Of a DNA stretch of 20,385 nucleotides, positions 3,885 through 20,016 are shown one piece after another (positions within the stretch are counted from its first letter, which is position 1; each line of letters begins with the position of its first letter). Source of the stretch: an uncultured Planctomycetaceae bacterium (GTDB taxonomy: Bacteria > Planctomycetota > Planctomycetia > Pirellulales > Pirellulaceae); assembly GCA_903927685.1 (NCBI GenBank), contig CAIYOB010000896.1, forward strand, positions 1 to 20,385. Direction: 5' to 3'. A program made the translations under genes and the position numbers. The notes beneath the pieces were generated by a model. That model was not told where the DNA came from and searched no databases. It saw only the letters and a program-made list of their open reading frames with translations.

Positions 3885-5756
3885 ATGATGCGCACCGTGA
3901 AGCCGAGTTTGGGGTTGTTGTGGTTGGTTCTGGCGAGCGGGCTCGCAGCCCCTGTCGGAGCTGACTCTGCCGCTCCCAGCATGTTGTCGTTCCTGAAGGA
4001 GCGGCAAGCTGTCCGTCATCAGCGGGTCCCGCGCGAGGTGCTGGCTTTCTACTACACGTGGTACGGGCGGCCGGAGCGGCAGGGAGGTTGGGTCCATTGG
4101 GGTGGCGAAGATCCCGCCGCGCATGAGATTCCCCAGTCGACGCACTATCCGGCCAAGGGCGCCTACGACTCGCACGACCGGGAGATCATCGAGGGCCATA
4201 TCGACCAGGCCAAACGCCATGGGCTGACCGGTTTCATTGCTACGTGGTGGGGACAGGGCACCTATGACGACCGGGCCTTGGCCACGCTGCTGGAGCGTGC
4301 CGCCGACAAGCACTTCAAGGCGACGGTGTACTGGGAGACGGCTCCGGGCAAGGGAGCGGCGCAGATCGAGCGGGCGGTCGACGACCTGCTGTACGTGCTG
4401 CAGCGATACGGAGGGGCGGATGCATTTCTGAAGGTGGACGGAAAGCCCGTGGTGTTCGTCTACGGCCGCGTCATGGGCGAGGTGCCACTGACCTCGTGGC
4501 CTGCCATCATCCACGGCGTCCGCCAGCGGTACGGCCGCGATTTCTTGTTGATCGCCGATGGCTACAACGAGTCGTACGCGCGGCTGTTCGACGGCGTCCA
4601 TACCTACAACATCTGCGACTGGGTGCGCGATCAAAGCCCGGAGGATTTGCGGCGGTCGAGTGCGGCGTCCTTCTCCGCCGCCGTGCAACTGGCCAAATCG
4701 CAGGGCAAGATCAGCTGCGTGACGATCATTCCCGGATACGACGACACCAAGATCCGCCAGCCGGGCCTGAAGGCCGAACGCCAAGACGGGAAGACCTACC
4801 AGGTGCTGTGGGACGAGGCCATCCGGGCCGATCCCGACTGGGTGCTGATCACCTCGTGGAACGAGTGGCACGAGGGCTCGGAGATCGAACCCAGCTGGGA
4901 GGACGGTGACCGGTACCTGCAACTCACGAAACCCTCCGCGGAGCGGTTTCGGGCGAGCCCCTACAGCCGTGTGCCCGTGCCGGATTCGCCGGCAGGTCTG
5001 ACGCCGGAGCAGGCCCAATCGCTGCGCGAACTGTACCAGGGCCGGTCGATCGGCGTGCTGCCCAACTACGGACCCCAGGTCGTGTTCTGGCTGGCCGACG
5101 TCGGCATTTCGCTCCGGGAACTGAGTTGGCAAGAGGTGCTCGATCCGCAGGTCCTGGACGCGAAACGACTGCCGATCCTGCTGTACGCCAGCGACGAGCA
5201 CTATGTGCGGACGATGCATCAGGACGGCGACGTCGAAGCGGCCCTGGGGCGTTATCTGGAAGGCGGCGGCCTGCTGCTGGCGTTCTCGCCTGAACCCTAT
5301 CCGTTCTTCTACGACGAGAGCGGCCAGCCGAATATCGCCGCGGGCCGACTGGGCTTTCCGATCCTCGGCAGCGGGCGGGCCATCCGGAGCGAATTGCCGG
5401 AGCGGGCTTTCATTCGGGCGTGGGAGTCGCCGCCGGCGGATGTTCCATTGACGTTTCGCGTTGATTGCGAGCGGTTGCCTGGCCTGCCGGCGACAGCGGC
5501 GTTCCCGGCCAGCGGCGATCGGCGCTGGCGTCCTGCCACGGAAGCCTTGACCGCGCCGGGGGACGTGTATCTGCCACTGGCTCGGTTGAGCGACGCCGAG
5601 GGCCATGTGTACGGCGACGGTATCGTGTACGTCGAACACCGCGATTCGACGCCCAAGGGTGGGCGCAACCTGTACGTCTGGATGCGCATGCCGGATGTGC
5701 TGGGTACGCACCAGACGCTGCTGTCGATCTTCCGCTTTGCGGCGCGAAGTTTGTAG
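3885..5756 (+). CDS. Secreted GH99-like glycosidase (endo-alpha-mannosidase/mannanase family)
   Basis: The protein has 623 residues. A signal peptide spans about 1-26 (hydrophobic L-L-W-L-V-L-A-S-G-L, cleavage near V-G-A). The barrel domain, about 50-355, carries GH99 hallmarks: F-Y-Y-T-W-Y-G (55-61), V-H-W-G-G (70-74), Y-D-S-H-D (94-98), T-G-F-I-A-T-W-W-G (115-123) and S-W-N-E-W-H-E-G (324-331). Glu327 and Glu330 match the E-x-x-E pair known as catalytic in bacterial GH99. Family enzymes cleave internal alpha-mannosidic bonds with retention. The C-terminal region (about 370-623), with G-V-L-P-N-Y-G-P-Q and G-G-G-L-L-L-A-F-S-P, looks like an accessory Rossmann/beta module and has no clear assignment. 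An AGGAGG at 3871-3876 lies 8 nt before the ATG; a second ATG follows directly. The PQQ fusion gene starts 102 nt downstream in the same direction, suggesting co-transcription. Mannan specificity is inferred from the family. Confidence 0.85.
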   Translation: MMRTVKPSLGLLWLVLASGLAAPVGADSAAPSMLSFLKERQAVRHQRVPREVLAFYYTWYGRPERQGGWVHWGGEDPAAHEIPQSTHYPAKGAYDSHDREIIEGHIDQAKRHGLTGFIATWWGQGTYDDRALATLLERAADKHFKATVYWETAPGKGAAQIERAVDDLLYVLQRYGGADAFLKVDGKPVVFVYGRVMGEVPLTSWPAIIHGVRQRYGRDFLLIADGYNESYARLFDGVHTYNICDWVRDQSPEDLRRSSAASFSAAVQLAKSQGKISCVTIIPGYDDTKIRQPGLKAERQDGKTYQVLWDEAIRADPDWVLITSWNEWHEGSEIEPSWEDGDRYLQLTKPSAERFRASPYSRVPVPDSPAGLTPEQAQSLRELYQGRSIGVLPNYGPQVVFWLADVGISLRELSWQEVLDPQVLDAKRLPILLYASDEHYVRTMHQDGDVEAALGRYLEGGGLLLAFSPEPYPFFYDESGQPNIAAGRLGFPILGSGRAIRSELPERAFIRAWESPPADVPLTFRVDCERLPGLPATAAFPASGDRRWRPATEALTAPGDVYLPLARLSDAEGHVYGDGIVYVEHRDSTPKGGRNLYVWMRMPDVLGTHQTLLSIFRFAARSL

Positions 5757-5858: not shown

Positions 5859-8800
5859 TTGATCGGACTCCGCTATTCTGTCTTGCTGTTCACGTGGCTC
5901 GCCGCGTCCCCCGCCTTCGGCTCCGACTGGCCGACCTACCAGCACGACGTCCGCCGCAGCGGCTATTCGGACGAGCCGTTGGATGCGTCGCGGCTGCGTG
6001 CCGCGTGGACTTGGCGTTCTCCGCAGCCCCCGCAGCCGGCGTGGGGCGGGCCGGCGCGGTGGGATGCCTACGCGGGCCACCGCGATCTGCCGTCAATGCG
6101 CAACTATGACCTGGCCTTTCACGCGATTGCGGTCGGCGACGCGGTCTACTTCGGATCGTCGGCCGACGATACCGTGCGGTGCCTGGATGCGGCCAACGGC
6201 CGACTCGTCTGGTCGTTTACGACGGGCGGCCCCGTGCGTCTCGCTCCCACTTGGTCGGAAGGCCGCGTGTATTTCGGCTCGGACGACGGCTATGCCTATT
6301 GCCTGCGAGCGGACTCGGGCCAGTTGCTGTGGAAGTTCCAGCCGCCGGGATTGGACAGTCGACCGCAAATCTTGAACGACGGCCGCTTGATCCCGCTGCA
6401 TCCTTGCCGCACCGGCATGCTGGTGGACGGCGCCACGGCGTACTGCGGCTACGGGCTGCTGCCGTGGGAAGACACGTACTTGTGCGCGCTGGACGCGGCG
6501 ACGGGACAGCCCGCAGGTCCCGGCCGGTACATCCGCAAACTGCCAGCCCTGACGCTGGAGGCGTCACCGGCCGCCATGGCCGACACGCTCGTATTCCCTC
6601 AGGGCCGCATTGCGCCGCAACTGTTCCGTCGCAGCGACGGGGCCGATCAAGGCCAGCTGAAAAACAGCGGCGGCGGCTCGCTGGTCGTCGTCGCCCTCGA
6701 CTCGACGATCTTCCACGGGCCCGCGGCGGAACCTCGCCAGGGCGAACTCCGCCGCAGCGATCCGCGCACACTGGAGACGATCGTCGGGCACGGCCGCGGC
6801 AAGGCGATCGTGTGCGCCGGCCCGGTCTGCTATCTGCTGACGGACGATTCGCTGGTCGCGTCGGATCTGGCCAGCCGCCGGCAGTTGTGGCTCGTGCCCA
6901 GTGAATATCCGTACGCTTTGATCGCCGCGGGCGAGACCTTGTTTGCCGGCGGCGACGACCAGGTCGCGGCGCTCGACGCACGCGACGGGCGCATCGTCTG
7001 GCGCCAGCCGGTGCAAGGCCACGCCTGCGGCCTGGCGGCCGCCCGAGGGCGACTGCTGGTCAGCACGGACGAAGGTGCCATACACTGCTTCGACAGCTCG
7101 GCCGCAGCTGCCCCCACGACGGAATCGAAGTCCACGGCCGGCGCTCCCGCGAGCCCGGCCTCGGCGGAGCCGCATCCGGAAGAGCCGCTCGCGAACATCG
7201 CACCGTCGGACGAACCCGGCCTGCTCGGCCGCTGGGTTTTCCAATCGCCGCACATCCAGGGCGATGCCGTTCGTGATTGGGCGGGCCGTACCGACGCCCA
7301 CACGCTGAGCGGCGTCCGACTGGAGCGGGTGGGCCGCTTTCAGGCGCTGGTGGCCGACGGCCGCACCCAGAGCGTCCGCATCGCCGACGATTACCGTCGC
7401 GTGCCGGTGCCCAGCGGTCGGATGACGGCCGAAGCCTGGGTGCGCGTCGACCAGCCGCTGGCCTGGGGTGGCATCGTCGGCGCTATCCAAGACAACGGCA
7501 GCGACGAACACGGCTGGCTGCTGGGCTACTGTAACTCGAGGTTCAGTTTCGCCCTGGCCGGTGCTCAGGGAAACGGCCGGCTGACTTACCTGAACGCGGA
7601 CGCGGATTTTGCCACGGGCCGCTGGTATCACGTCGTGGGCACGTACGACGGCGCGGCGATGAAGCTGTACGTCGACGGAGCCCTGGCCGGATCGTCGTCC
7701 GTACAGCGGGGTGACATCCGCTACCCGCCGCAGGCGTTCTATGAGATCGGCGCGTACCACGACAAGGACGAGTACTTTCGGCTGACGGGGCGGATTCACG
7801 AAGTGCGCGTGTTTGACCTCGCGCTGACGGCCGACCAGGTAGCCGCTCACTACGCCGCCGTGGCCGACCGATTTCCGCAGCCCGCGCCGACTCCGGAACA
7901 CCGTCCCCTGCCACTGGCCGCCGGCCCGTGGCTGCAGTTCAGCGAACCCGGCACGGCCGTGGTGCGTTGGAAGTCGCATTCGCCTACGGCCAGCGTGCTG
8001 GAATACGGAGCAGATGATGCCGTTCAGCGAATGGTCGAGCCAGCGATGAAAACCGAGCACGAACTGCGGCTGACCGGCCTGCGGCCGAACCGCAGGTACT
8101 GGTACGCGATCCGCAACGAAGCGGAAGATCCGCCGGCGGCGACCGAGCGGTTCGAGTGCGATACGTTCCACAATTACACGCTGGGGCCGATCGCCGGCGA
8201 CGCCGAGGCGCGCTTCGACGACGCGTCCGGCAGCTTTTCGCGGGCGGCGGACGAAATCCTGAGACGGACCGAGGCCCGGAGCGGGATCTGCCTGGTGTAC
8301 GGCTCGGGCGACGGCCGTCTGGCGTATCAACTGGCCCGCCGCAGCAGCTTGCGCGTGATCGGCGTGGACGAGGATGAAGCGCGCGTCGAGGCCTCGCGCG
8401 CCGCCCTGCTGGCCGCCGGGGTCTACGGATCTCGCGTGGCGCTGCACAGCGTCCCGAGCCTGGACAGCCTGCCGATGATCGGCCGGTTTGCCAATCTGGT
8501 GGTGTCCGAACGCGTGCTGGTGGACGGCGTCGCTTGCGGTCAGGCGGCCGAGATGCGGCGCGTCCTGCGTCCCGATGGCGGTGTCGCGTGCCTGGGCCAG
8601 CCGGCCGGGGTGGGCCGAACGCTGGACGCCGAGGTCCTGCGGACTTGGCTGGCCGCCGGTTCGATTCCCGCGAACGTATCGGCGGATGCCGGGGGAGTAT
8701 GGGCCCTGTATACGGAGCCGCCATTGGCCGGCATTGGCCAGTGGACGCACTTGTACGGCAGCGCCGACAATTCGGCGTACGGCGGGGAGCAGTTGGGCGG

Positions 8801-10064
8801 GGCCAGCAGCACGCGGGATTTGGCGGTCCAGTGGCTGGGGCGACCGGGGCCGAGCTTCCAAGCCGACCGGAATGGCCGCAAGCCGTCGCCGCTGTCCGTG
8901 GCGGGGCGATTGTACTTGCAGGGTCTGCACCGGATCCTCGCCTTGGACGCCTACAACGGCTCGCCGCTGTGGTCCCTGGAGATCCCGGACTTCGAGCGGT
9001 ACAACATGCCTCGCGATTGCGGCAACTGGTGCGCCGACCGCGAGTATGTCTATGCCGCTGTGCGCGACAAGTGTTGGCGGATCGACGCCGCGAGCGGGCG
9101 CGTGGTCGATCAGCGGGACGTCGTTCCGCCGGCCAGCGCCGACTGGCGGTACGATTGGGGATATCTGGCCAGCGACGGTCCGCGACTGATCGGCAGCGCC
9201 GTGAAACAAGACGCGTCGTGGACCGGGTTTTGGGGCGGCGCCGACGCCGGCTGGTACGATGCCCGCAGCGGGGCTGTCACGTTTCCCGTCTGCAGCGACA
9301 ACCTGTTCGCGCTCGACAAGGCGACGGGGCGGCCCGCCTGGACCTATGCCGGCGGCGTCATCCTGAATTCGACGATCACCGTGGCCGGTGGCCGCGTCTA
9401 TTTCGTCGAGAGCCGCCATCCGGACGTGAAAGCCTGGCCGGAGCGGCGGGTGGGCAGGCCGGAGTTGTGGGAGCAGCAGTTCCTGGTGGCCCTGGACGCC
9501 GAAACCGGCTCGGCGGTCTGGCAGCAGCCTATCGATACGGAGAACGGCGATGTTGTGTTCTATCTGGCGCACAGCCAGGACCGTCTGGTGATCGTTGCCT
9601 CGACCCACGGGCGCTACCACGTGTACGGGTTTTCGACGCAGCGTGGCGAGCCGGTTTGGGAGCAGCGCGTGGACTGGCCCGAGGGCAAAGGCGACCACGG
9701 CAAAGCGATGTCCCGGCCGGCGATCGTGGGCGGACAAGTCTACGTGCGGCCGGGCGCGTTCTCGCTGGCGGACGGCAAGCCGCTGCCGCAAGCCGTTCCC
9801 CCCGGCGGCTGCGGTACGTACGCCTGCACAGCCAGCACGTTGGTCTATCGCTCCGGCACGGTCACGCTGTGGGACCGGGCCACCGGGGGCGTCAGCGGCT
9901 GGCCTCGGCTGCGGCCCGATTGTTGGCTCAGCACCATCCCCGCTGCGGGCATGCTGCTGTCGCCCGAAGGCGGCGGCGGTTGCAGTTGCGGCAGTTGGCT
10001 GGAAACGTCGATCGGGTTCATGCCGCGCCCGACGCCAGCTGACAGGGAAGACAGCGGCGGCTGA
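5859..10064 (+). CDS. Giant exported PQQ-propeller / LamG / Fn3-like / methyltransferase-like fusion protein
   Basis: The product has 1401 residues. It starts at TTG 5859, supported by GGGAGG (5847-5852) 6 nt upstream and by the signal peptide that follows (about 1-21, ending F-G-S). Domain order: PQQ-like propeller blades, about 23-415 (Y-F-G-S-S-A-D-D-T-V-R-C-L-D; L-D-A-A-T-G; A-L-D-A-R-D-G-R-I-V-W); an Ala/Pro/Ser linker; a LamG/concanavalin-like domain, about 455-670 (W-Y-H-V-V-G-T-Y-D-G, L-Y-V-D-G); an Fn3-like domain, about 686-770. Next is a class I methyltransferase-like domain, about 795-905, with V-Y-G-S-G-D-G (813-819), acidic D837 in V-I-G-V-D-E-D and V-L-R-P-D-G-G. A second PQQ-like propeller covers about 960-1401 and ends G-G-G-C-S-C-G-S-W-L-E-T-S. 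I recall similar fusions in other planctomycetes but cannot verify this. It is probably periplasmic or surface-exposed. The role is unknown; neighbours suggest glycan processing. Confidence 0.85.
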   Translation: MIGLRYSVLLFTWLAASPAFGSDWPTYQHDVRRSGYSDEPLDASRLRAAWTWRSPQPPQPAWGGPARWDAYAGHRDLPSMRNYDLAFHAIAVGDAVYFGSSADDTVRCLDAANGRLVWSFTTGGPVRLAPTWSEGRVYFGSDDGYAYCLRADSGQLLWKFQPPGLDSRPQILNDGRLIPLHPCRTGMLVDGATAYCGYGLLPWEDTYLCALDAATGQPAGPGRYIRKLPALTLEASPAAMADTLVFPQGRIAPQLFRRSDGADQGQLKNSGGGSLVVVALDSTIFHGPAAEPRQGELRRSDPRTLETIVGHGRGKAIVCAGPVCYLLTDDSLVASDLASRRQLWLVPSEYPYALIAAGETLFAGGDDQVAALDARDGRIVWRQPVQGHACGLAAARGRLLVSTDEGAIHCFDSSAAAAPTTESKSTAGAPASPASAEPHPEEPLANIAPSDEPGLLGRWVFQSPHIQGDAVRDWAGRTDAHTLSGVRLERVGRFQALVADGRTQSVRIADDYRRVPVPSGRMTAEAWVRVDQPLAWGGIVGAIQDNGSDEHGWLLGYCNSRFSFALAGAQGNGRLTYLNADADFATGRWYHVVGTYDGAAMKLYVDGALAGSSSVQRGDIRYPPQAFYEIGAYHDKDEYFRLTGRIHEVRVFDLALTADQVAAHYAAVADRFPQPAPTPEHRPLPLAAGPWLQFSEPGTAVVRWKSHSPTASVLEYGADDAVQRMVEPAMKTEHELRLTGLRPNRRYWYAIRNEAEDPPAATERFECDTFHNYTLGPIAGDAEARFDDASGSFSRAADEILRRTEARSGICLVYGSGDGRLAYQLARRSSLRVIGVDEDEARVEASRAALLAAGVYGSRVALHSVPSLDSLPMIGRFANLVVSERVLVDGVACGQAAEMRRVLRPDGGVACLGQPAGVGRTLDAEVLRTWLAAGSIPANVSADAGGVWALYTEPPLAGIGQWTHLYGSADNSAYGGEQLGGASSTRDLAVQWLGRPGPSFQADRNGRKPSPLSVAGRLYLQGLHRILALDAYNGSPLWSLEIPDFERYNMPRDCGNWCADREYVYAAVRDKCWRIDAASGRVVDQRDVVPPASADWRYDWGYLASDGPRLIGSAVKQDASWTGFWGGADAGWYDARSGAVTFPVCSDNLFALDKATGRPAWTYAGGVILNSTITVAGGRVYFVESRHPDVKAWPERRVGRPELWEQQFLVALDAETGSAVWQQPIDTENGDVVFYLAHSQDRLVIVASTHGRYHVYGFSTQRGEPVWEQRVDWPEGKGDHGKAMSRPAIVGGQVYVRPGAFSLADGKPLPQAVPPGGCGTYACTASTLVYRSGTVTLWDRATGGVSGWPRLRPDCWLSTIPAAGMLLSPEGGGGCSCGSWLETSIGFMPRPTPADREDSGG

Positions 10065-10259
10065 CAGGTCCGCCGAAAACAACACGTTCCAGGATGTTGC
10101 GTTCCCCAAGTTTACTGGAGGAGGACGACACACGAGGCCGGCGTGGGGGCTTCCCAGGGAACGCGATGGGAGATCAAATGGAACGTCTTGCTGTCCCTCG
10201 GTATTCGCCGGACCGATCAGGATCTTGGTTCGCTTTCCTCCAGCCAGGAGAACGATGAC

Positions 10260-11762
10260 GTGAACAAGACGTTGCTGCTGCTGTTGCTTGCTTGGACCTG
10301 CGGCTTGGCAGCCGAATCCGGATCGGCCGCCGATGGCCTGCCGGACACCCGCCGGATGAATGTGCTCTTCATTATCGCTGAGGACTGGAATGCCAATACG
10401 CCCGGCTGCTACGGCAATCCGATCTGCCAGACGCCTAACCTGGACCGGTTTGCCACGACCGCGGTCCGTTTTGACTCGGCCTACGTCCAGGCGATCTGCT
10501 GCAATCCCTCGCGGACTTCGTTCCTGACGGGCCTGCGTCCGCTGACCACCGGCGTGTGGTCCAACGGCCAAGAGATGGACACGCACCTGCCGCCCGGGAC
10601 CGTCACCTTGCCGGAGATGTTGAAACACAAGGGCTTCACGACCGCGGTGATCGGCAAATTCTTCCACACGGTCGAGTATGCCGAAAAACAGCTGCTGGCG
10701 TTCGACCGGATCGAGATGTACGGCAAACCGCCGGGCTGGAACGGCCCCGGACCGATCCTGGCGTTCCCAACCGTGAAACTGCCGCCCGCCGAACGCGATC
10801 CGGCCCCGAAGAACAAGGCCAGCAAGGAGTACCGCCAGTGGCGCGCCAGGCATTCGGACCGCTATGGCGACTCGGGGCGGGAGCCCGAGCAGGAAGGCGA
10901 TTACCGTCACGCCCAGACGGCGATCGGTTTGCTGAAGGAGTTTTCCAAGTCACAGGATCGCTTCTTCCTTTCGGTGCATCAGTCGCGTCCGCATACTCCG
11001 TTGCTCGCGCCCAAGAAATACGTCGACATGTACGACCCGGCCCGGATCCCCGATCCGCCGGCTCCGCCTGCGAGCCTGCAAGGCTGCCCCTATCCCAAAC
11101 GTATGACGGGCGGCAACCCGGACATTTTCATGGAACGGCAGCCCACGCCCCAGCAGGCCAAGGAAGCGATCGCAGCCTACTATGCCTGCGTCAGCTTTGT
11201 CGATGACAACATCGGCCGCATCCTCGAATCCTTGACGGATCTGGGGCTGGCCGACAACACGATTGTCGTGGTCATGGGCGATCACGGCTTCCACCTGGGC
11301 GACCACGGCTTCTGGTCCAAGTACTCGATGCTCGAAGCCACCCGCCGCGCACCGCTGTGGGTCCGCGTGCCCGGGGCGGCGGGCAACGGCCAGGTCTGCC
11401 GCGAATTCGTCGAGTTCGTCGATCTCGTGCCGACCGTGGGCGAACTGGCCGGCCTGGACGTGCCGGCGAACCTCGAAGGCATCAGCTTTGCCCCGCTGTT
11501 GGCCAATCCCACGCGGCCCTGGAAGAAAGCCGTGTTCATGGTTGAAAACGAGGCCAGCCAGATGGTGCGGAACCGCCGGTACAGCTATCTGCAGTTCGAC
11601 AAGGGACCGGTACCCGCCGCGCTGTACGACTTGCAGAAGGACCCCTGGGAAATCGTGAATCTGGCGGACGATCCGGCCTATGCCGAGGCTCGTCAGAACA
11701 TGGCCGCGCTGCTCAAGGCAGGTTGGAAGGCCGCGTTGCCCGAACGATTTAGCCAGCCGTAA
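10260..11762 (+). CDS. Secreted sulfatase, iduronate-2-sulfatase-like
   Basis: The product has 500 residues. The start is GTG 10260, preceded by AGGAG (10246-10250) at 9 nt and followed by a signal peptide (N-K-T-L-L-L-L-L-L-A-W-T-C-G-L-A-A). The frame stays open to 10143, but that extension buries the signal peptide and lacks a well-placed ribosome binding site. Type I sulfatase features: I-I-A-E-D-W (metal site, Asp42), the formylglycine motif C-N-P-S-R with Cys81 followed by T-S-F-L-T-G, H-Q-S-R-P-H-T-P, and V-M-G-D-H-G-F-H-L-G-D-H-G-F-W-S-K, which is typical of the iduronate-2-sulfatase branch. The family uses formylglycine and Ca2+ to hydrolyse sulfate esters. Cys81 would need an FGE-type maturase encoded elsewhere. 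The first acidic pair is Glu-Asp rather than the usual Asp-Asp. It follows the PQQ fusion by 195 nt; the true substrate is unknown. Confidence 0.93.
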   Translation: MNKTLLLLLLAWTCGLAAESGSAADGLPDTRRMNVLFIIAEDWNANTPGCYGNPICQTPNLDRFATTAVRFDSAYVQAICCNPSRTSFLTGLRPLTTGVWSNGQEMDTHLPPGTVTLPEMLKHKGFTTAVIGKFFHTVEYAEKQLLAFDRIEMYGKPPGWNGPGPILAFPTVKLPPAERDPAPKNKASKEYRQWRARHSDRYGDSGREPEQEGDYRHAQTAIGLLKEFSKSQDRFFLSVHQSRPHTPLLAPKKYVDMYDPARIPDPPAPPASLQGCPYPKRMTGGNPDIFMERQPTPQQAKEAIAAYYACVSFVDDNIGRILESLTDLGLADNTIVVVMGDHGFHLGDHGFWSKYSMLEATRRAPLWVRVPGAAGNGQVCREFVEFVDLVPTVGELAGLDVPANLEGISFAPLLANPTRPWKKAVFMVENEASQMVRNRRYSYLQFDKGPVPAALYDLQKDPWEIVNLADDPAYAEARQNMAALLKAGWKAALPERFSQP

Positions 11763-11778
11763 ACGCCCGACACGCCGC

Positions 11779-11802
11779 GCGCTGGGCCCGGAACCCCAGC
11801 GC
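11779..11802 (+). terminator. GC-rich hairpin just after the sulfatase
   Basis: GCGCTGGG (11779-11786) and CCCAGCGC (11795-11802) pair perfectly around an 8-nt loop, 17 nt after the sulfatase stop. No U tract follows. It may protect the mRNA 3' end, act as a pause site or be a Rho-linked terminator; intrinsic termination is not demonstrated by the sequence. Confidence 0.45.
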
Positions 11803-11855
11803 TCGCCCCTGCCAGGCGAAGCCCCTGAATTCTGCCGCTCCGGAAAGGAACCCGT

Positions 11856-12539
11856 ATGATGTCTGATCGATTGAATCGTCGCAGGATGTTAAGCATGTTG
11901 GCGGCCGGTTCGGCCGCCTGGGCCGCGAGACCGTCGGCAGCTGCGGACGCGGAAGGCGTTGCCGGCAAGATCCTGATGCCCATCGGCGACGCCACCGAGG
12001 CGGTGGACACGCTGTACCCGTTCTTCCGCGTGCAGGAGGACGGTTACCAGGCCGTGGTGGCCGGTCCGGAGGCCCGCTTGTATCACATGGTCCTGCACGA
12101 AGTGCCGCCCAGTCCTGACGTGCCGTGGGACATTACCGAGGAGCGGCCGGGGTACCATCTTCAGGCCGACGTGGCCTTTCGTGACGTCCAGCCTGAAGAG
12201 TACGCGGGCCTGTTCGTTTCCGGCGGCCGGGCCCCGGAGTACTTGCGTTACGACCAGGATCTGCTGCGGATTACACGCCACTTTTTCGAGGCCCGCAAGC
12301 CTGTGGCCGTGGTCTGCCACGGAATTGAGATTGTCAGCGCCGCCGGAGTGATTCGCGGACGCACAGTGACCACAGTCGCCAAATGCGCGCTCGATGCCGA
12401 ACAGGGCGGCGCCAAGTACGTCAACCAGCCGGTCGTCGTCGACGGCAATCTGGTGAGCGCCCGCACTTGGCACGACAACGCCCCGTTCATGCGCGAGTTC
12501 ATGAAGTTGCTCAAGGCCCCCGGGAACTCAAAGGCGTAA
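11856..12539 (+). CDS. Tat-exported DJ-1/PfpI family protein
   Basis: The product has 227 residues. It begins with a twin-arginine-type leader (L-N-R-R-R-M-L-S-M-L-A-A-G-S-A-A-W-A-A, Arg8-Arg10), with cleavage probably near residue 30, so export after folding is predicted. The mature part is a class I glutamine-amidotransferase-like fold of the DJ-1/PfpI type: K-I-L-M-P-I-G-D near the first strand, Y-A-G-L-F-V-S-G-G-R-A-P-E-Y (Glu128 near the active site), and the nucleophile elbow V-A-V-V-C-H-G (Cys154, His155), then A-A-G-V-I-R-G-R. Family members include proteases, glyoxalase/deglycase-like enzymes and redox chaperones, so the reaction cannot be named. AAAGGAA (11844-11850) lies 5 nt before the ATG. 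It is the last of four consecutive plus-strand genes for exported proteins. Confidence 0.88.
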   Translation: MMSDRLNRRRMLSMLAAGSAAWAARPSAAADAEGVAGKILMPIGDATEAVDTLYPFFRVQEDGYQAVVAGPEARLYHMVLHEVPPSPDVPWDITEERPGYHLQADVAFRDVQPEEYAGLFVSGGRAPEYLRYDQDLLRITRHFFEARKPVAVVCHGIEIVSAAGVIRGRTVTTVAKCALDAEQGGAKYVNQPVVVDGNLVSARTWHDNAPFMREFMKLLKAPGNSKA

Positions 12540-12541
12540 CG

Positions 12542-12591
12542 AGCCCCACGGAGCGCCAGTCTTGCCCGCAGGCAACGCTAGCACGGGGGCT
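12542..12591. repeat. Nested palindromic structure after the DJ-1 gene
   Basis: Three arms nest symmetrically: AGCCCC (12542-12547) with GGGGCT (12586-12591), AGCG (12552-12555) with CGCT (12576-12579), and TTGCC (12562-12566) with GGCAA (12571-12575) around a CGCA loop. It begins 2 nt after the stop codon and is followed by AAAATCC. It could terminate or stabilise the DJ-1 transcript, or be a REP-like element. Confidence 0.5.
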
Positions 12592-12603
12592 AAAATCCAG
12601 CCT

Positions 12604-12631
12604 TTGGTTCACCACGCGGTTTCGGTATACT
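12604..12631 (+). promoter_or_regulatory. Sigma70-like promoter placing transcription start at the ATG
   Basis: TTGGTT (12604-12609), a 16-nt spacer and TATACT (12626-12631) form a good promoter. The -10 ends 7 nt before the ATG at 12639, so the predicted +1 is at or next to the start codon. No Shine-Dalgarno is visible there. The downstream gene is therefore probably leaderless. Confidence 0.6.
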
Positions 12632-12638
12632 CCGCCCC

Positions 12639-13751
12639 ATGCGTGCATGGAGGACGGGGCGATTCCTGGTTGGTGGACTAGGGCTGGCATTGGCCGCAAT
12701 GCTGGCGGGTTGCGGGACCACCAAGACGCGGAACGCCACGGAACAACTGCTGATCTCGGATGCGGTGGACCGCTCCATCGCCGTGATCGACTTTACACCC
12801 CTGGCGGGCAAGACGGTTTTTCTTGACACCAAGTACCTGGTCGCCGTCAAGACCGTCGGCTTTGTCAATGCGGAATACGTGACCAGCGCCCTCCGCCAGC
12901 AGCTGTTGGCCTCCGGTTGCCTGCTGCAGGACAAGGTGGAGGAAGCGGAATACGTCGTCGAGGCCAGGATTGGGACCTTGGGCACGGATGGACACGACGT
13001 GACTTACGGGATTCCGCCCAGTTCCGGGGTCGCTCAGGCGGCGGAGATGCTGCCCAACGTTCCCCGCGTCCCGATTCCGGATATCTCCCTGGCCAAGAAG
13101 GAAGACATGCTGGGCGCCGCCAAGGTAGCGGCGTTTGCTTATCACCGCGAGACGCGAATCCCGGTCTGGCAATCCGGCATCTCCGTGGCGACCAGCAACG
13201 CCCGGGACTCGTATATCCTGGGCGTCGGACCGATCCAGGACGGGACCATCTACCACGGCACACATTTCGCGGGCAGCCGCATGCAGATCCCGCTATTGTC
13301 CGGCAAGCAGCAGGCGCCGCCCTGGCGCGGTTTGGTCTCGCACTACGACGAGGTTCAGTTCGACAAGCTGACAGGCAAGATCGGCATCCCCGCGAAGCCC
13401 ACGGCCGAAGAAATCAATGCCCAAATCGAAGCCATCGTCAAGGTACCCAAGCTGTCCCCGCTGACCGAACAGATGTTTGCCGACATGAGTCCGCCCGCCC
13501 CGACGGCCAATGCCGTGCCCGCGCCAGCCGCGCCATCCGCCGCGCCGGCCCCGGCGGCAGACGGGCCCGTGGCGAGCGTCGCCGAACGTCCCAAGCCGTT
13601 ACCCGCGGTCGCACCCGAACCACCGACCACCGCTGTGGCCGCGCCGGCCAATCCTGCACCGCCGCCTGCCCCGCCGACCGCCCCGCCCGCGAATCAGCCT
13701 CCGCCTCCACCGCCAGCGGCACCGGGGCCAACTCCGCCAACTCCGCCGTAG
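12639..13751 (+). CDS. Lipoprotein with Pro/Ala-rich C-terminal tail, function unknown
   Basis: The product has 370 residues. A lipoprotein signal ends in L-A-G-C with Cys25 as the lipidation site. The conserved-looking body, about 26-285, includes T-K-T-R-N-A-T-E-Q-L-L-I-S-D-A-V-D, V-F-L-D-T-K-Y-L and Y-V-V-E-A-R-I-G-T-L-G-T-D-G. The start of this body reminds me of the planctomycete family named DUF6655, but this is unverified recollection. After about residue 285 the sequence is almost entirely Pro and Ala and ends in Pro runs. Such a tail could span the periplasm or peptidoglycan, though low complexity prevents a firm claim. The ATG at 12639 has no ribosome binding site and lies 7 nt after a -10 element. 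It ends 72 nt before the preferred comEC start. No enzymatic motif was seen. It might be an envelope-assembly lipoprotein; that is speculation. Confidence 0.82.
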   Translation: MRAWRTGRFLVGGLGLALAAMLAGCGTTKTRNATEQLLISDAVDRSIAVIDFTPLAGKTVFLDTKYLVAVKTVGFVNAEYVTSALRQQLLASGCLLQDKVEEAEYVVEARIGTLGTDGHDVTYGIPPSSGVAQAAEMLPNVPRVPIPDISLAKKEDMLGAAKVAAFAYHRETRIPVWQSGISVATSNARDSYILGVGPIQDGTIYHGTHFAGSRMQIPLLSGKQQAPPWRGLVSHYDEVQFDKLTGKIGIPAKPTAEEINAQIEAIVKVPKLSPLTEQMFADMSPPAPTANAVPAPAAPSAAPAPAADGPVASVAERPKPLPAVAPEPPTTAVAAPANPAPPPAPPTAPPANQPPPPPPAAPGPTPPTPP

Positions 13752-13787
13752 CCGGCCGCTGCGCGGGACTTTACGGGCTCGTCCGAA

Positions 13788-13816
13788 TTGACAGCCTCTC
13801 GGCCGGCTGGTCGAAT
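13788..13816 (+). promoter_or_regulatory. Sigma70-like promoter for comEC with consensus -35
   Basis: TTGACA (13788-13793, full consensus), a 17-nt spacer and TCGAAT (13811-13816, four of six) place +1 at about 13823-13824, exactly at the ATG of comEC. The TTG of this -35 box could be mistaken for a start codon of a longer comEC product. Confidence 0.58.
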
Positions 13817-13823
13817 AGCCCGT

Positions 13824-16325
13824 ATGAGCGACGGCGCGGCGTGTCGATCCCTGCGACTCACTCCGGCGCGGCGGATTCTGCCGCTGCCGGTCATCCTGGC
13901 AGCTCTGGTGCTCGGGGTGTTGGCCGATTGCGCGCGGCCGCAGTCCGTGGCGGTCTGGCTGACGGCCAGCGGCGGCGGACTGCTGGCCTGGTTCGCCCTA
14001 TGGTGGCTGCGTTGCGACCGCGCGGCCGCCGTGGTGTTGCTGCTGGCCGTCGCGTGCGCGGGTGCCGCTCGGCATCACGAGCGCTGGAATGTCTACCGCG
14101 CCGACGAAATCGGACTCGCGGCCCGGGACAGCCCGCGGCCGATCTGCCTGCAGACCGTCGCCCTCGATTCTCCCCGCCGTGTCGCGGCGCCGCCCGACAA
14201 CCCTCTGCGGACTCGCCCGGCTGGGGAACGCTCGCGACTGTTGGTCCAAGTGGTGGCAGCACGCCACGGGCAGGCCTGGCAAGTCGCGACGGGGACGGCC
14301 GAACTGACCGTGGATGGGCACGTGTTGGGCGTCCGCGCGGGCGATCGCCTGCAAGTGTTGGCCTTGTTCCAACGGCCGCCCAGCCCGTTGAATCCGGGCG
14401 GTTTTGATCTGGCCTGGCACCGCCGCTGCGATCGGCAGTTATTCCAATTGGAGGCCGACTTTCCGGACTCGATTACGGTGCTAGCTACTGGCTCGCTGTG
14501 GAACTGGCGCCGTCTGCTGGGCGCGGTGCGAGATCCCTGCCAGGAACTGCTGTGGGGATATCTGCGCCAGCGCCAAGCCGGCCTGGCCACCGCCTTGCTG
14601 CTGGGAGCCCGCGAGCACGTGGATCGGGAGCGGACCGAGCCATTTGTGACCACTGGGACCGTCCATCTGCTGGCCATCTCGGGGGTGCACGTCGGGATCT
14701 TGGCGCTGGGGTTCTGGTGGATCGCACGGCTGTTGGCCCTGCGCCGCACGGTGGCGATCGGCGGGGCGATTGCCTTCGTCGTGGTCTATGCCCTGCTGAC
14801 CGACGCCCGGCCCCCCGTGGTTCGCGCGGCAATTCTGGTGGTCGCCTTCTGCCTGGCCCGCTTGTCGGCTCGCCGCGCGTCGGGCTTTAATGCGCTGGCC
14901 GCGGCCGCGATCGCGGTCAGCGCGTGGAATCCCGCCAGTCTGTTCCAGGCCGGCACGCAGTTGTCGTTCCTGGCTGTCGCGACGATTTACCTGATCAGTC
15001 CCTACCTTGTGACGCCGGGCGACCAGGATCCGCTGACGCGGTTGATCGAGCAGAGCCGCCCCTGGTACGTGCGGTGGCGGAAAGGCTTTGCGTTGGGGCT
15101 GGGCAACCTGCTGTTGATCAGTTCGGCGATCTGGCTGGTGACGCTGCCGCTGACCGCCTACCGCTATCACTTGGTCTCCCCCATTGCCCTGGTGCTCAAT
15201 CCGCTCGTCGGGATTCCCGTCAGCGTGGCTCTGTTTGCCGGTTTCGGCGTTATGGTCTTCGGCTGGATCCTGCCGCCGGTCGGATACGCCTGCGGCTGGA
15301 TCTGCAACCAAAGCCTGGGGCTGCTGGAGTGGCTGGTCGACGCGGCGGATCGAGTCACCGCGGGCCACGTCTGGATTCCGGCGCCGGCGAGTTGGTGGGT
15401 CCTGGGCTTCTACGCCGGGCTGGCGGTGTGGGCGGTCTGGTTTCGCCGCCGCTTGCCGGCCCGCTGGTGCCTGGCCGCATTGTCGCTGTGGTTTGGGATT
15501 GGTGCGCTGACCATCGTCCGCCAGATGCCGGGGCCGGCCGAGCGAGCCGGGGAACTGGTCTGCACGTTTGTGGCCGTGGGGCATGGCGCATGCACGGTCG
15601 TGGAACTGCCGGGCGGTCAAACGCTGTTGTATGACGCGGGCAGCATGAGTGCCCCGGATGCCACCGCGCGGACAATCGCCGAATTCCTCTGGTCGCGGAA
15701 GATCACGCATCTGGATGCCGTCCTGCTGACCCACGCCGATGCGGACCACTACAATGCGTTGCCCGAGTTGTTGGAGCGATTCTCCGTCGGCGCCGTGTAT
15801 GTCTCGCCGGTCATGTTCCAGGAACCTACGCCGGCGTTAGCGGCGTTGCGCCAGGCGCTGGTCCAGCGGTGCCTGACCGTCGGCGAGATTTATGCCGGCG
15901 ATGGACTCCGCACACGGGATGCGTCGGAGTGGGTTGTCCTGCATCCGCCGCGCCGCGGCGTGTCCGGCAGCGACAACGCCAGCAGTCTGACGTTGCGCGC
16001 GGCTTACGCGGAACGCTCGATCTTCCTGGCCGGCGACCTGGAACCGCCCGGGCTGGATGACCTGCTGGCTGGCCGGCCGCTGGAATGCGCCGTCGTGCTG
16101 GCTCCGCATCACGGCAGTTCGCGAAGTCTGCCCGAGAAACTGCTGGGCTGGTCCCGGCCGGAATGCCTGGTGATCAGCGCGGCCGCCAACGAAGGCTTTG
16201 CCGCGTACCAAGCGGCCGTTCGGGCTGGCGTTCGGGCGATCAACACCGGTCGGTCCGGCGCTGTCCAGGTGACGGTTGCTCCGGACCGGTTCGAGGTGAG
16301 AACTTGGAGACACGAACCGTGGTAG
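13824..16325 (+). CDS. comEC: ComEC/Rec2 DNA-uptake channel protein
   Basis: The product has 833 residues from ATG 13824. ComEC forms the inner-membrane channel that takes up single-stranded DNA during natural transformation. Layout: N-terminal membrane segments (residues 15-80); a soluble DUF4131/OB-like region (about 80-215) with P-L-N-P-G-G-F-D; the polytopic competence domain (about 250-570) with the signature H-L-L-A-I-S-G-V-H-V-G (His281-Gly291); and a metallo-beta-lactamase-like domain (about 580-833). The latter has D-A-G-S near 603, T-H-A-D-A-D-H (His637, Asp639, Asp641, His642), A-G-D-L-E near 738 and P-H-H-G-S-S (His762-His763), so the metal-binding set looks intact. The in-frame TTG at 13788 lies within a consensus -35 box and is rejected as start. 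No ribosome binding site precedes 13824, consistent with a leaderless mRNA. It converges on the small secreted-protein gene with only 6 nt between stops. No other competence gene is present here. Confidence 0.93.
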   Translation: MSDGAACRSLRLTPARRILPLPVILAALVLGVLADCARPQSVAVWLTASGGGLLAWFALWWLRCDRAAAVVLLLAVACAGAARHHERWNVYRADEIGLAARDSPRPICLQTVALDSPRRVAAPPDNPLRTRPAGERSRLLVQVVAARHGQAWQVATGTAELTVDGHVLGVRAGDRLQVLALFQRPPSPLNPGGFDLAWHRRCDRQLFQLEADFPDSITVLATGSLWNWRRLLGAVRDPCQELLWGYLRQRQAGLATALLLGAREHVDRERTEPFVTTGTVHLLAISGVHVGILALGFWWIARLLALRRTVAIGGAIAFVVVYALLTDARPPVVRAAILVVAFCLARLSARRASGFNALAAAAIAVSAWNPASLFQAGTQLSFLAVATIYLISPYLVTPGDQDPLTRLIEQSRPWYVRWRKGFALGLGNLLLISSAIWLVTLPLTAYRYHLVSPIALVLNPLVGIPVSVALFAGFGVMVFGWILPPVGYACGWICNQSLGLLEWLVDAADRVTAGHVWIPAPASWWVLGFYAGLAVWAVWFRRRLPARWCLAALSLWFGIGALTIVRQMPGPAERAGELVCTFVAVGHGACTVVELPGGQTLLYDAGSMSAPDATARTIAEFLWSRKITHLDAVLLTHADADHYNALPELLERFSVGAVYVSPVMFQEPTPALAALRQALVQRCLTVGEIYAGDGLRTRDASEWVVLHPPRRGVSGSDNASSLTLRAAYAERSIFLAGDLEPPGLDDLLAGRPLECAVVLAPHHGSSRSLPEKLLGWSRPECLVISAAANEGFAAYQAAVRAGVRAINTGRSGAVQVTVAPDRFEVRTWRHEPW

Positions 16326-16918: not shown

Positions 16919-18547
16919 TCAGGATCCCCCCTGGTTCTCCAGCACGAACAGGCTCGGCGTAGGGGATACCTCGGACTGTTCCCAGACCACGAAGTTCCCG
17001 ACGACCAGGTCCAAGTCCCCATCGCCGTCGAGGTCTCCCGCATCCAGGCAGGGGTGGCGGGGATAGCCCTGCTCCAAACAGAATCGCTGGAACTGGCCAG
17101 GCGCGGTCTGCGACAGCCAGACGATCGTCTCGAGGTCGGCCGCGTCCGGCGACTCGGGCTTAATCGCCGGGATGAACACGCTGGAGACGACGTCCAGATC
17201 GCCGTCGCGGTCCAGGTCCACCGGATGCGAAGTGTGCGCGCCGGGCAAATGAGTCAGCTGGTGGTGCCGAAACCCAAGGCTGCCGTTGTTCTCCAGCCAG
17301 GCGACACCGTGATAGGGCCGCAGGATGGGCGGCACCTGCACCTGGTCGCCGTTGTTCCACAGGATGTCCACGTCGCCGTCCGCATCCAAGTCGGCTAACT
17401 TGATGCCGGTGGACCCCCAGCGTGTGTGCGGCGCGTGAGCCACGGGCACGGGATTGAATCGCCCTCGCCGTGCGTTCAGGAACGCGATGATGCGCTCGTG
17501 CTCCTGGGCTTGGAGCGCCACAAAGTCGGGGCGGCCGTCGCCGTTCAGGTCGACCACCGGAATGTCGCTGGTTCCCGTGTGGCCGTCGAGCGAGATCGGC
17601 TCAAAGTCCGGATGCGCGTAGTCCTCGGTGAAATTCTCCAGGTAGACGATCATCCCGGTGGTGAAGTTGCCGAACACCGCGACGACGATGTCCAGGTCGC
17701 CGTCGCCGTCGAAGTCGGCGGGTGAGACCTCGTTCACGCGTCCGACGCCACTCAGCAGCACGACCGGCTCGAACTGCTCGTTGCCCCGGCCCCGCAGCCA
17801 GATCACGCTGCCTTGGTCGGTATCCAGGGGCCAGAATACGCCCAGATTCGCAACCAGGATGTCGCGGATGCCGTCGCCATCCAGGTCCACTACGCAGGTG
17901 CGGCTGGGATGCGGAATCCGGGCGATGACGCGCGCGGTTGCGGCCGGCTGCGCAGGATTCCAGAGCACGACCGCGCCGTGCCGCATGTCGCTGACGAGCA
18001 ACTGCTGCGGGGCATCGTCCGAAAGGCGGACGAAGCGGACGCACGAAACCGCAGGCGGGCTGGGTACTCCAGCCAAGTCGACGGGGCGCCGCTGGAACAG
18101 GACTGGCGATGGCGGTGAATTCGTTGCGTCGGAGGGCAGCGTCAGGGCAGCCGGAGCCCGCGCTGTCCAATAGTCGATCGCCGCCTCGATGGCGGGAATC
18201 TCGGTCTTGGGCCAGGGACGCTTACTTTCCGCATAGCCATACATCTCCTGGATCTTCCGCGCCCACGCTCCCCGCGGCTCTGCGTCCGCAGGCGGCAGTA
18301 CATGGCAGGTGCTGCAGAACTTCTCGACAACCGGGTCGTCGGGAGGTTGGCGAAAGTGGGACTTGGCGACCGGATCTCGCAGACGCACGTCAAAGGGGTT
18401 GTGGGCCACGGCAGACGATGATGCCCGTGACGAGACATCGCGGCCGCCATCGCCGGCCAGGAACCGCGTGGCGACAATACTTGCAGCCGCAACGGCAACG
18501 ACGGCGGCGAGAGAGGTGATGATGATCGAGCGTCGGGACAAACTCAC
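16919..18547 (-). CDS. Membrane-anchored FG-GAP/VCBS repeat protein with a haem c motif
   Basis: The product has 542 residues from GTG 18547. A hydrophobic segment (about 8-28) preceded by S-R-R-S-I-I-I gives an N-terminal anchor or signal, with a Tat-like arginine pair. Next comes a single haem c attachment site, C-S-T-C-H (Cys78, Cys81, His82), in F-C-S-T-C-H-V-L-P-P; Met102 is a possible distal ligand. The rest is a beta-propeller with six calcium-type FG-GAP motifs: D-L-D-G-D-G-I-R-D, D-F-D-G-D-G-D-L-D, D-L-N-G-D-G-R-P-D, D-L-D-A-D-G-D-V-D, D-L-D-R-D-G-D-L-D and D-L-D-G-D-G-D-L-D. It is presumably periplasmic, in electron transfer or binding; no enzyme activity can be named. The frame is open to an ATG at 18685, but that extension has no signal-like features and reads through a large inverted repeat. 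No Shine-Dalgarno precedes either start, so the start is uncertain. Confidence 0.8.
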   Translation of the reverse strand: MSLSRRSIIITSLAAVVAVAAASIVATRFLAGDGGRDVSSRASSSAVAHNPFDVRLRDPVAKSHFRQPPDDPVVEKFCSTCHVLPPADAEPRGAWARKIQEMYGYAESKRPWPKTEIPAIEAAIDYWTARAPAALTLPSDATNSPPSPVLFQRRPVDLAGVPSPPAVSCVRFVRLSDDAPQQLLVSDMRHGAVVLWNPAQPAATARVIARIPHPSRTCVVDLDGDGIRDILVANLGVFWPLDTDQGSVIWLRGRGNEQFEPVVLLSGVGRVNEVSPADFDGDGDLDIVVAVFGNFTTGMIVYLENFTEDYAHPDFEPISLDGHTGTSDIPVVDLNGDGRPDFVALQAQEHERIIAFLNARRGRFNPVPVAHAPHTRWGSTGIKLADLDADGDVDILWNNGDQVQVPPILRPYHGVAWLENNGSLGFRHHQLTHLPGAHTSHPVDLDRDGDLDVVSSVFIPAIKPESPDAADLETIVWLSQTAPGQFQRFCLEQGYPRHPCLDAGDLDGDGDLDLVVGNFVVWEQSEVSPTPSLFVLENQGGS

Positions 18548-18560
18548 AAGATGTTCTGTC

Positions 18561-18640
18561 GTTGAACGGCAAGCCGCAGGCGACGGCGGATCAGCGGGAT
18601 GCGGCCACTCAAGCCGTCGCCTGCCGGCTTGGCTTTCAAC
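18561..18640. repeat. Long imperfect inverted repeat upstream of the FG-GAP gene
   Basis: The arms are 18561-18587 and 18613-18640, with a 25-nt loop. The reverse complement of the second arm matches the first (GTTGAA, CAAGCCG, CAGGCGACGGC) apart from a three-base patch and one inserted G. It ends 13 nt upstream of the GTG at 18547. It could be a 5' UTR hairpin, a REP-like unit or a MITE-like remnant. No target-site duplication was identified. Confidence 0.75.
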
Positions 18641-18709
18641 GAGGACTCGATTTCGTGAACGATGCTCGGGGCCGGTATCGGACATTCCGGCGGGTGCCGA
18701 ACCCTGCGC

Positions 18710-19919: not shown

Positions 19920-19966
19920 GAATGAGTCCTCCCTAGTCGAAAAGAACACGTGACAATAGCTCTCGC

Positions 19967-19982
19967 CGCCTCGATCGAGGCG
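19967..19982. promoter_or_regulatory. Perfect 16-bp palindrome upstream of the DUF1559 gene
   Basis: CGCCTCGATCGAGGCG is fully self-complementary with no spacer. It lies 48 nt before the DUF1559 start and 35 nt after the stop of the upstream lipoprotein gene. A dimeric-regulator operator is possible; it has no U tract and no loop, so a terminator is less likely. Confidence 0.4.
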
Positions 19983-20016
19983 AACGAGCCCAATCCACAA
20001 TTAGATTCTCTGTTCG

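Follow-up and report, generated by a model that had tools for sequence, protein, structure and literature searches.

A methyltransferase-fold domain with altered SAM motifs in a predicted exported propeller protein and its relatives

Gene organization and predicted export

The window, a stretch of 20,385 nucleotides, carries on its forward strand an open reading frame at 5859-10064 with a TTG start, 1401 codons and zero internal stops. The preliminary description had noticed here a methyltransferase-like domain (MT) embedded between LamG/Fn3-like modules and a second propeller. A Pfam domain scan bears out these surroundings, and the observation is confirmed overall, with its interpretation partly supported. 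The features are as follows.

5859..10064, + strand: whole gene, PropN-LamG-Fn3-MT-PropC; predicted exported protein of 1401 aa, TTG start, matched by P0002
5859..5921, + strand: predicted Sec-type signal peptide, about residues 1-21 (ASPAFG before SDWPTYQHD); hydropathy heuristic, cleavage site estimated
5928..7103, + strand: first PQQ/BamB-like propeller, PropN, residues 24-415; Pfam PQQ_2, a separate gene in many relatives
7356..7844, + strand: LamG/concanavalin-like domain, residues 500-662; Pfam Laminin_G_3, E 4e-29
7938..8138, + strand: Fn3-like domain of the purple-acid-phosphatase N-terminal type, residues 694-760; Pur_ac_phosph_N, below the Pfam cut-off
8193..8744, + strand: class I methyltransferase-fold domain (MT), residues 779-962; structure prediction and profile
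8289..8324, + strand: modified motif I, residues 811-822, CLVYGSGDGRLA; Val813 in place of the strand-1 acid
8367..8369, + strand: acid ending strand 2, D837; Asp/Glu in 118/132 family domains
8397..8435, + strand: conserved R847 ... Y856-G857-x-R859; family alignment against stand-alone methyltransferases
8742..10028, + strand: second propeller, PropC, residues 962-1390; directly after MT, with many invariant charged residues
9810..9989, + strand: invariant PropC cysteines C1318, C1355 and C1375-x-C1377 (66/66)

P0002, a protein database entry from a separate source record, also has 1401 residues, of which 1392 are identical to the window protein, and a local assembly error is therefore unlikely. 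The existence of PropN as an adjoining gene of its own in many relatives could speak for an assembly chimera or a frameshift that fuses separate genes, an objection foreseen in the preliminary description. Against it stand P0002 and the many full-length relatives whose domains are arranged alike; the likelihood of such an artefact is negligible and it was rejected. From the separate PropN genes it follows instead that the long window protein is a natural fusion. The LamG position is variable across the family, other relatives carrying PF11721, PF06452 or other modules. Phage relatives comprise eight records, and the five listed match the LamG part only.

The N-terminus of the window protein passes a simple signal-peptide test, a hydropathy heuristic that leaves out ORFs truncated by the left end of their contig. 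By this test signal peptides are predicted for 64 of 73 MT-containing ORFs and for 45 of 48 ORFs that have PropN and no MT match, versus 8 of 116 internal controls. Of 52 family proteins, 47 start with Met, and none of these shows a Tat-like motif. The family-wide signal lends support to the export that had been suggested. The opposite case, a protein that remains cytoplasmic with MT as an ordinary methyltransferase, draws on the fact that all evidence for export is computational. It is contradicted by the above counts and by the permuted relative P0051, in which MT lies close behind an N-terminal hydrophobic stretch, and is highly improbable.

Methyltransferase fold and state of the SAM motifs

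MT is predicted with a pLDDT of 94.8 and shows the seven-stranded, Rossmann-like order of class I methyltransferases. Methyltransf_25 matches residues 814-907 with 25.6 bits in the whole protein (cut-off 27) and with 29.8 bits, above the cut-off, when the domain is searched alone. The best match in a structure search with the predicted domain was 3dlc, most matches listed being named methyltransferases, and a profile search likewise connects 3dlc with MT (E 3.6e-13). The Rossmann methyltransferase-like domain read from the letters is thus real at the level of predicted structure and profile; the comparison with class I methyltransferases, which had been proposed as a check, gave a methyltransferase-like result and not the contrary one.

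The complete fold is common to MT and the class I SAM-dependent methyltransferases (Methyltransf_25/11/31; nearest solved structures 3dlc, MMP1179, and 3bus, RebM), as are the position of the glycine loop, the strand-2 acid in most members, G809 and the P905-x-G turn. Unlike these enzymes, the family has mostly lost the strand-1 acid, is variable in the glycines, and has its own YG signature, an export signal and a propeller fusion. A protein search for the stand-alone methyltransferase nearest to L076, the member with the most canonical domain, yielded only three proteins of 320-331 aa, apparent fragments of the same family.

Motifs were counted in 132 family domains, which include near-copies and a possible overlap of database and locus sets; the relatives were sampled from the window protein, partly via the MT-PropC junction pattern, which biases the sample toward that junction. 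As a control served 20 stand-alone methyltransferases, 17 of them from one subfamily, out of 26 rows matching the MT part alone (G115, which has an internal stop, G059, G204, G121, G129 and G312 were left out).

The letters V-Y-G-S-G-D-G (813-819) and D837 are present as described, but their description as intact rather than decayed does not hold. It overlooked that the strand-1 acid of motif I corresponds to Val813 in the window protein, a departure from active methyltransferases, and that motif I is eroded in many relatives. Asp or Glu stands at the strand-1 position in 8 of the 132 domains; the other 124 have lost the acid. The GxGxG loop is complete in the window (G815-S-G817-D-G819), all three glycines being present in 38/132 domains, G815 in 118/132 and the second glycine in 46/132. 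The acid at the end of strand 2 is present as D837 and kept in 118/132. The strand-3 acid is missing in the window, where Pro866 and Ser867 stand, and Asp/Glu occurs at either position in 79/132 in a gappy alignment. Strand-1 acid, GxGxG and strand-2 acid come together in two domains of the 132 (L076 and P0042), whereas the stand-alone methyltransferases have the strand-1 acid in 20/20, the glycines in 19/20 and the strand-2 acid in 20/20. In the passages of PMC1282579 used here, the strand-1 acid is called 'exceptionally well conserved' among methyltransferases and the strand-3 acid is given as partially conserved across class I. The same passages describe non-catalytic proteins of the methyltransferase fold, the absence of the strand-1 acid in nicotianamine synthases, and a Tyr at its place in some ribose methyltransferases.

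With the motif state defined by whether G815, G819 and the strand-2 acid occur together, it changes 16 times on the PropC tree, a quick tree with two long branches (L076 and L069), and at least nine of the changes are forced by starred branches. The SAM motif thus comes and goes on one tree on which fold and junction persist. Among 45 eroded members G809 is kept in all 45, R847 and G857 in 43 each and P905 in 41; none of the ten most conserved MT positions falls within the glycine loop. G857 is present in 130/132 family domains versus 0/20 stand-alone methyltransferases (18 of them gapped there), which have Y856 in 2/20, R847 in 10/20 and R859 in 17/20. Since G809, R859 and P905 are common in stand-alone methyltransferases too, their persistence shows a kept fold and not a new role. 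Still more degenerate domains lie at the same place in L051 and L121, the latter without a recognizable glycine loop. At the family level this is the pattern of a pseudo-methyltransferase, with the fold kept and the SAM motifs lost; the window copy is only partly eroded.

An active extracytoplasmic methyltransferase, fed with SAM by leakage or by the linked ABC transporter, would agree with the intact GSGDG and D837 of the window, with the closest solved relatives being SAM enzymes and with the genetic linkage of a transporter. Its main obstacle is the strand-1 acid, absent in 124/132. Moreover, among 80 locus rows, 16 of 34 domain rows are eroded in loci with F1 or F2 (see below) versus 17 of 46 elsewhere; the transporter is therefore not tied to an intact SAM site. 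Permeases of the FtsX/LolC/MacB type are not known to export SAM. This reading was rejected as the main one on acid loss and on erosion being as common in transporter loci, and is very unlikely. The MT domain of this large, predicted exported protein probably no longer does methyl-transfer chemistry.

The MT-PropC junction and a proposed structural role

In 90 of the 92 members examined PropC follows MT directly, and the predicted Fn3-MT-PropC model reaches a pTM of 0.93. By fold and PQQ_2 profile the protein belongs with the PQQ-like propellers (PQQ_2/BamB clan), with scores far below the NCBIfam cut-offs for the BamB equivalog (TIGR03300, 81 versus 285 bits) and for PQQ-dependent dehydrogenases (TIGR03075, 47 versus 480 bits). 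The closest known propellers are those of the BamB, YxaL and quinoprotein type and tetrathionate hydrolase (7cqy, 6l8a); PropC differs from these in an invariant set of its own, C...C...CxC included. Tetrathionate hydrolase was dismissed as a model for PropC, since the two align at the level of repeats, with no common catalytic site shown.

On balance we favor, as somewhat probable, that the window domain is a methyltransferase fold kept as a non-catalytic cap or adaptor after erosion of its SAM site, with PropC as the working site, acting with F1, F2 and F3. A class I SAM-dependent methyltransferase would have been captured into an exported propeller protein, where, outside the cytoplasm, its SAM site may have been freed from selection and eroded repeatedly, the fold being retained as a pseudo-methyltransferase. 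MT would make an almost linker-free joint to PropC, and the variable modules, LamG/Fn3 or others, would sit on the opposite side of MT. The working site would be formed in PropC by invariant Asp, Arg, Glu and His together with C...C...CxC, and the partners of the whole protein may be F1, a CxC protein anchored in the membrane, and F2 and F3, an ABC transporter of the FtsX/LolC type. The earlier idea of a scaffold, or of a ligand different from SAM, gains support here, the non-catalytic, structural role being what we infer. A similar case, described in PMC1282579, is yeast mitochondrial transcription factor B, likewise a methyltransferase fold with degraded SAM motifs and another use; it acts in mitochondrial transcription, whereas the window domain is predicted to be exported and lies in front of a propeller.

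Some observations speak against a cap. The strand-2 acid and G815, each in 118/132 domains, are kept above the expectation for a functionless pocket, the strand-1 acid is dispensable in some SAM-binding Rossmann proteins, and L076 and P0042 keep the full canonical set. Through these two residues a re-targeted pocket might bind a small extracytoplasmic ligand (a nucleoside, a diol or sugar end, or a decarboxylated-SAM-like amine). The strand-2 acid and the loop glycines tend to persist together, as under joint selection (Fisher p 0.01, kinship ignored); judged by PMC1282579, the missing strand-1 acid resembles the situation in nicotianamine synthase, and the Asp within the glycine loop is reminiscent of spermidine synthase. 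That Asp is found as well in L069 (GCGDG), which has the strand-1 acid, so that the spermidine-synthase-like reading was dropped as not diagnostic. The second glycine and the strand-3 acid vary freely (46/132 and 79/132) and L121 persists with its loop unrecognizable, and a re-targeted pocket appears unlikely, if less so than an active enzyme. With the cap or adaptor, the puzzle of a SAM-type domain where SAM is not expected becomes a testable case of a cofactor site lost repeatedly in an exported enzyme fold.

Linked genes F1, F2 and F3

The family is associated with F1 both by gene cluster and at the genome level, F1 being found in 25/25 family genomes given. The cluster survey covered collections other than those of E. 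coli, plasmids and viruses, per-genome scoring used the best five candidates per genome, and the Fisher tests ignore the kinship of genomes. The F1 family has 1882 database matches, with no Pfam entry on any of 120 listed. No title or abstract on this architecture or cluster was found in the open-licence PMC full text searched. The analysis also exposes a conserved, unnamed gene cluster that includes the F1 family, and with it genetic tests of what many planctomycete 'PQQ-binding-like' proteins do become possible.

F2 and F3, genetically linked to the family, are predicted to form an FtsX/LolC-type ABC transporter. As in LolCDE, MacAB and FtsEX, there are a LolD-like ATPase and a permease with an FtsX domain, in which a single large loop separates membrane segments. 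Unlike in those systems, the ATPases score below the LolD cut-off (196 bits in L017 and 179 bits in L074 versus 308), the permeases of two members score below that for the LolC/E equivalog (28 and 35 bits versus 362), the loop carries a CxC invariant in 18/18, and the genes are linked to F1 and propeller proteins.

A wider proposal, which we put forward tentatively as a possibility, is that PropN, MT-PropC, F1, F2 and F3 work together as a single machine of the cell envelope, not described so far, in Planctomycetota, Verrucomicrobiota and a few Bacteroidota. A MacB/LolC-like ABC motor would power a relay that handles thiols or metal and runs through three extracytoplasmic CxC proteins. The working site of this relay would be formed by the propeller, on which the captured methyltransferase fold would sit as a structural cap.

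A role in sulfated-glycan metabolism was not adopted: no relative of the window's GH99 gene clusters with the family among the neighbors compared, and relatives of the neighboring sulfatase lie near the family in four loci (L025, L057, L062 and L079).

Domain architecture and family

The features of the window and of the protein encoded by the gene under study are as follows.

3885-5756 (+): GH99-like glycosidase gene, directly upstream of the gene under study
5859-10064 (+): gene under study, an uninterrupted ORF of 1401 residues
10143-11762 (+): sulfatase gene, downstream
13788-16325: ComEC-like competence protein with a metallo-beta-lactamase domain
16919-18685 (-): FG-GAP repeat protein
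18819-20000 (-): DUF1559 protein, its N-terminus resembling a type IV pilin
Both ends of the protein: PQQ-type propellers (Pfam), the first termed PropN and the second PropC
Residues 500-662: Laminin_G_3 (Pfam)
Residues 694-760: Fn3 of purple-acid-phosphatase type (Pfam, weak)
Residues 814-907: Methyltransf_25 (Pfam), just below cut-off in the whole protein and above it with the domain alone; here MT, a class I methyltransferase-fold domain

A glycan context of the window gene is possible. Named relatives and the DUF1559 gene suggest a planctomycete origin of the window. Database protein P0002, from a separate source record, is of equal length and identical to the window protein at 1392/1401 residues. 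A hydropathy test for signal peptides was passed by 64/73 MT-containing ORFs, 45/48 PropN ORFs without MT match and 8/116 internal controls; of 52 family proteins 47 start with Met, and none of these has a Tat-like motif. The methyltransferase-like domain in a putatively exported propeller protein, as given in the preliminary description, is thus borne out by the uninterrupted ORF, the Pfam matches, P0002 and the signal peptides predicted across the family.

Residues 760-960 as query returned 51 proteins from the protein database, all annotated with PQQ_2 (PF13360). A scan of genome contigs yielded 548 confirmed stretches; the locus set consists of the best 80 of these, which by record title originate from Planctomycetota, Verrucomicrobiota, Lentisphaeria, Kiritimatiellales, Bacteroidota and a few otherwise-labelled bins. 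MT was detected in 77 of these loci, the exceptions being two truncated by contig ends (L065, L070) and L051, where the copy is degenerate (hhalign 98.2%, E 4e-14). Because PropN is fused in some relatives, as in the window, and in others is a gene of its own adjoining on either side, the window protein represents the naturally fused form of a two-gene unit.

MT lies immediately before PropC in 90/92 PropC domains with sufficient upstream sequence (three locus sets), a sample that is not unbiased since the loci were retrieved partly by the MT-PropC junction pattern; the projected gap is one residue in 50 of the 90. The remaining two, L121:1580-4999 (-) and L051:9983-14272, carry shrunken or degenerate MT remnants still placed before PropC; that of L121 is short, without recognisable glycine loop, and ends in the usual junction. 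L001:4513-8472 and 9824-14134 are tandem paralogues, the first permuted with MT at residue 42 followed by PropC and PropN. MT also comes first in P0051, and in P0049 it occupies about residues 23-205.

State of the SAM motif and role of MT

According to PMC1282579, the strand-1 acid of class I methyltransferases is exceptionally well conserved, the GxGxG loop is without any universally conserved glycine, and strand 2 ends in a partially conserved, ribose-binding acid, with a further acid in strand 3. The family domains compared number 132, of which 80 come from loci and 52 from database proteins, the window protein counted among the latter. The strand-1 acid, at the position of Val813, is retained in 8 of the 132. 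Of the loop glycines, G815 is present in 118, G817 in 46 and G819 in 103, and 38 domains keep all three. The strand-2 acid is found in 118 and an acidic strand-3 position in 79. The full set of strand-1 acid, GxGxG and strand-2 acid occurs only in L076 and P0042. The window copy is intermediate, with D837 and the glycine loop present and the strand-1 acid lost; the earlier view that the glycine motif and acidic residue look intact rather than decayed has to be corrected. Two long-branch members, L076:9230-12130 and L069:6808-9744 (the latter without strand-2 acid), carry a near-canonical DYGCGxGRL motif and are possibly of ancestral type.

The control methyltransferases, 20 of 26 MT-only matches to the family profile in Bacteroidota genomes and 17 of them from one subfamily, possess the strand-1 acid (20/20), GxGxG (19/20) and strand-2 acid (20/20). 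G857 is found in 130/132 family domains versus 0/20 controls (gap at that place in 18), and Y856 in 2/20 controls; G809 (20/20), P905 (19/20), R859 (17/20) and R847 (10/20) are also frequent in controls. The 45 members lacking G815, G819 or the strand-2 acid retain G809 (45), R847 (43), Y856 (38), G857 (43) and P905 (41). None of the ten most conserved MT positions lies within the glycine loop; among 166 positions G815 ranks 11, D837 27, G819 41 and G817 113. On a quick PropC-only tree (66 rows, 37 'intact' and 29 'eroded') the motif state changes 16 times, at least 9 of these changes being forced by starred branches.

The SAM site would accordingly seem dispensable in the family, the MT fold and its junction with PropC not, and MT is for that reason best read as a pseudo-methyltransferase cap. 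Of the alternatives to SAM use proposed earlier, this favours the scaffold; a pocket re-used for another ligand is still a real rival, because the strand-2 acid is kept in 118/132. The working site is more likely to reside in PropC, which has 13 residues invariant in 66/66 (D1003, R1004, R1007, R1047, D1053, E1184, H1280, C1318, R1352, C1355, C1375, C1377 and S1384) and a mean pairwise identity of 42% versus 29% for MT.

The F1-F2-F3 gene cluster

Clustering of neighbour genes delivered three recurrent families. F1, a membrane-anchored CxC protein of about 390 aa, has no Pfam or NCBIfam match (4 members tested); among the 120 listed of its 1882 database matches none carries a Pfam domain, and those named are 'hypothetical' or 'uncharacterized'. 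Hydrophobic segments are N-terminal in 16/19 and C-terminal in 19/19 members, and C28, N71, S133, G257 and C286-x-C288 are invariant in 22/22. F2 is an FtsX-domain (FtsX/LolC-type) permease with an invariant CxC in its large loop (18/18), F3 a LolD-like ABC ATPase. Among the best 80 of 548 stretches F1 occurs in 33, F2 in 27 and F3 in 27, some F3 possibly being other ABC ATPases. All three are clustered with PropN and MT-PropC in L017:6789-14317, L041:9923-17201, L072:7529-14205 and others. CxC is common to PropC, F1 and the F2 loop; with low confidence, a thiol or metal relay powered by the ABC motor may be envisaged. This larger cluster surrounds the family, and no description of it was found in the open-licence full text searched.

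F1 is encoded in 25/25 genomes given for the 80 loci, elsewhere in the genome where not adjacent. F2 or F3 accompanies F1 in the same fetched stretch in 13/20 cases, and F2 in 11/14, some stretches stopping at contig ends. At thresholds of E 1e-10 (F1) and 1e-30 (MT-PropC), 199 sampled Planctomycetota genomes include 34 with F1 and 33 with MT-PropC (both 29, MT-PropC only 4, F1 only 5), and 194 Verrucomicrobiota genomes 16 and 7 (both 7, F1 only 9). With kinship ignored and centre genomes left out, Fisher tests of co-occurrence gave p values of 8e-25 and 8e-8. In 296 Bacteroidota genomes F1 and MT-PropC above 100 bits each occur once, in the same (centre) genome; weaker MT-PropC profile matches in 55 others are by position stand-alone methyltransferases or Fn3 pieces.
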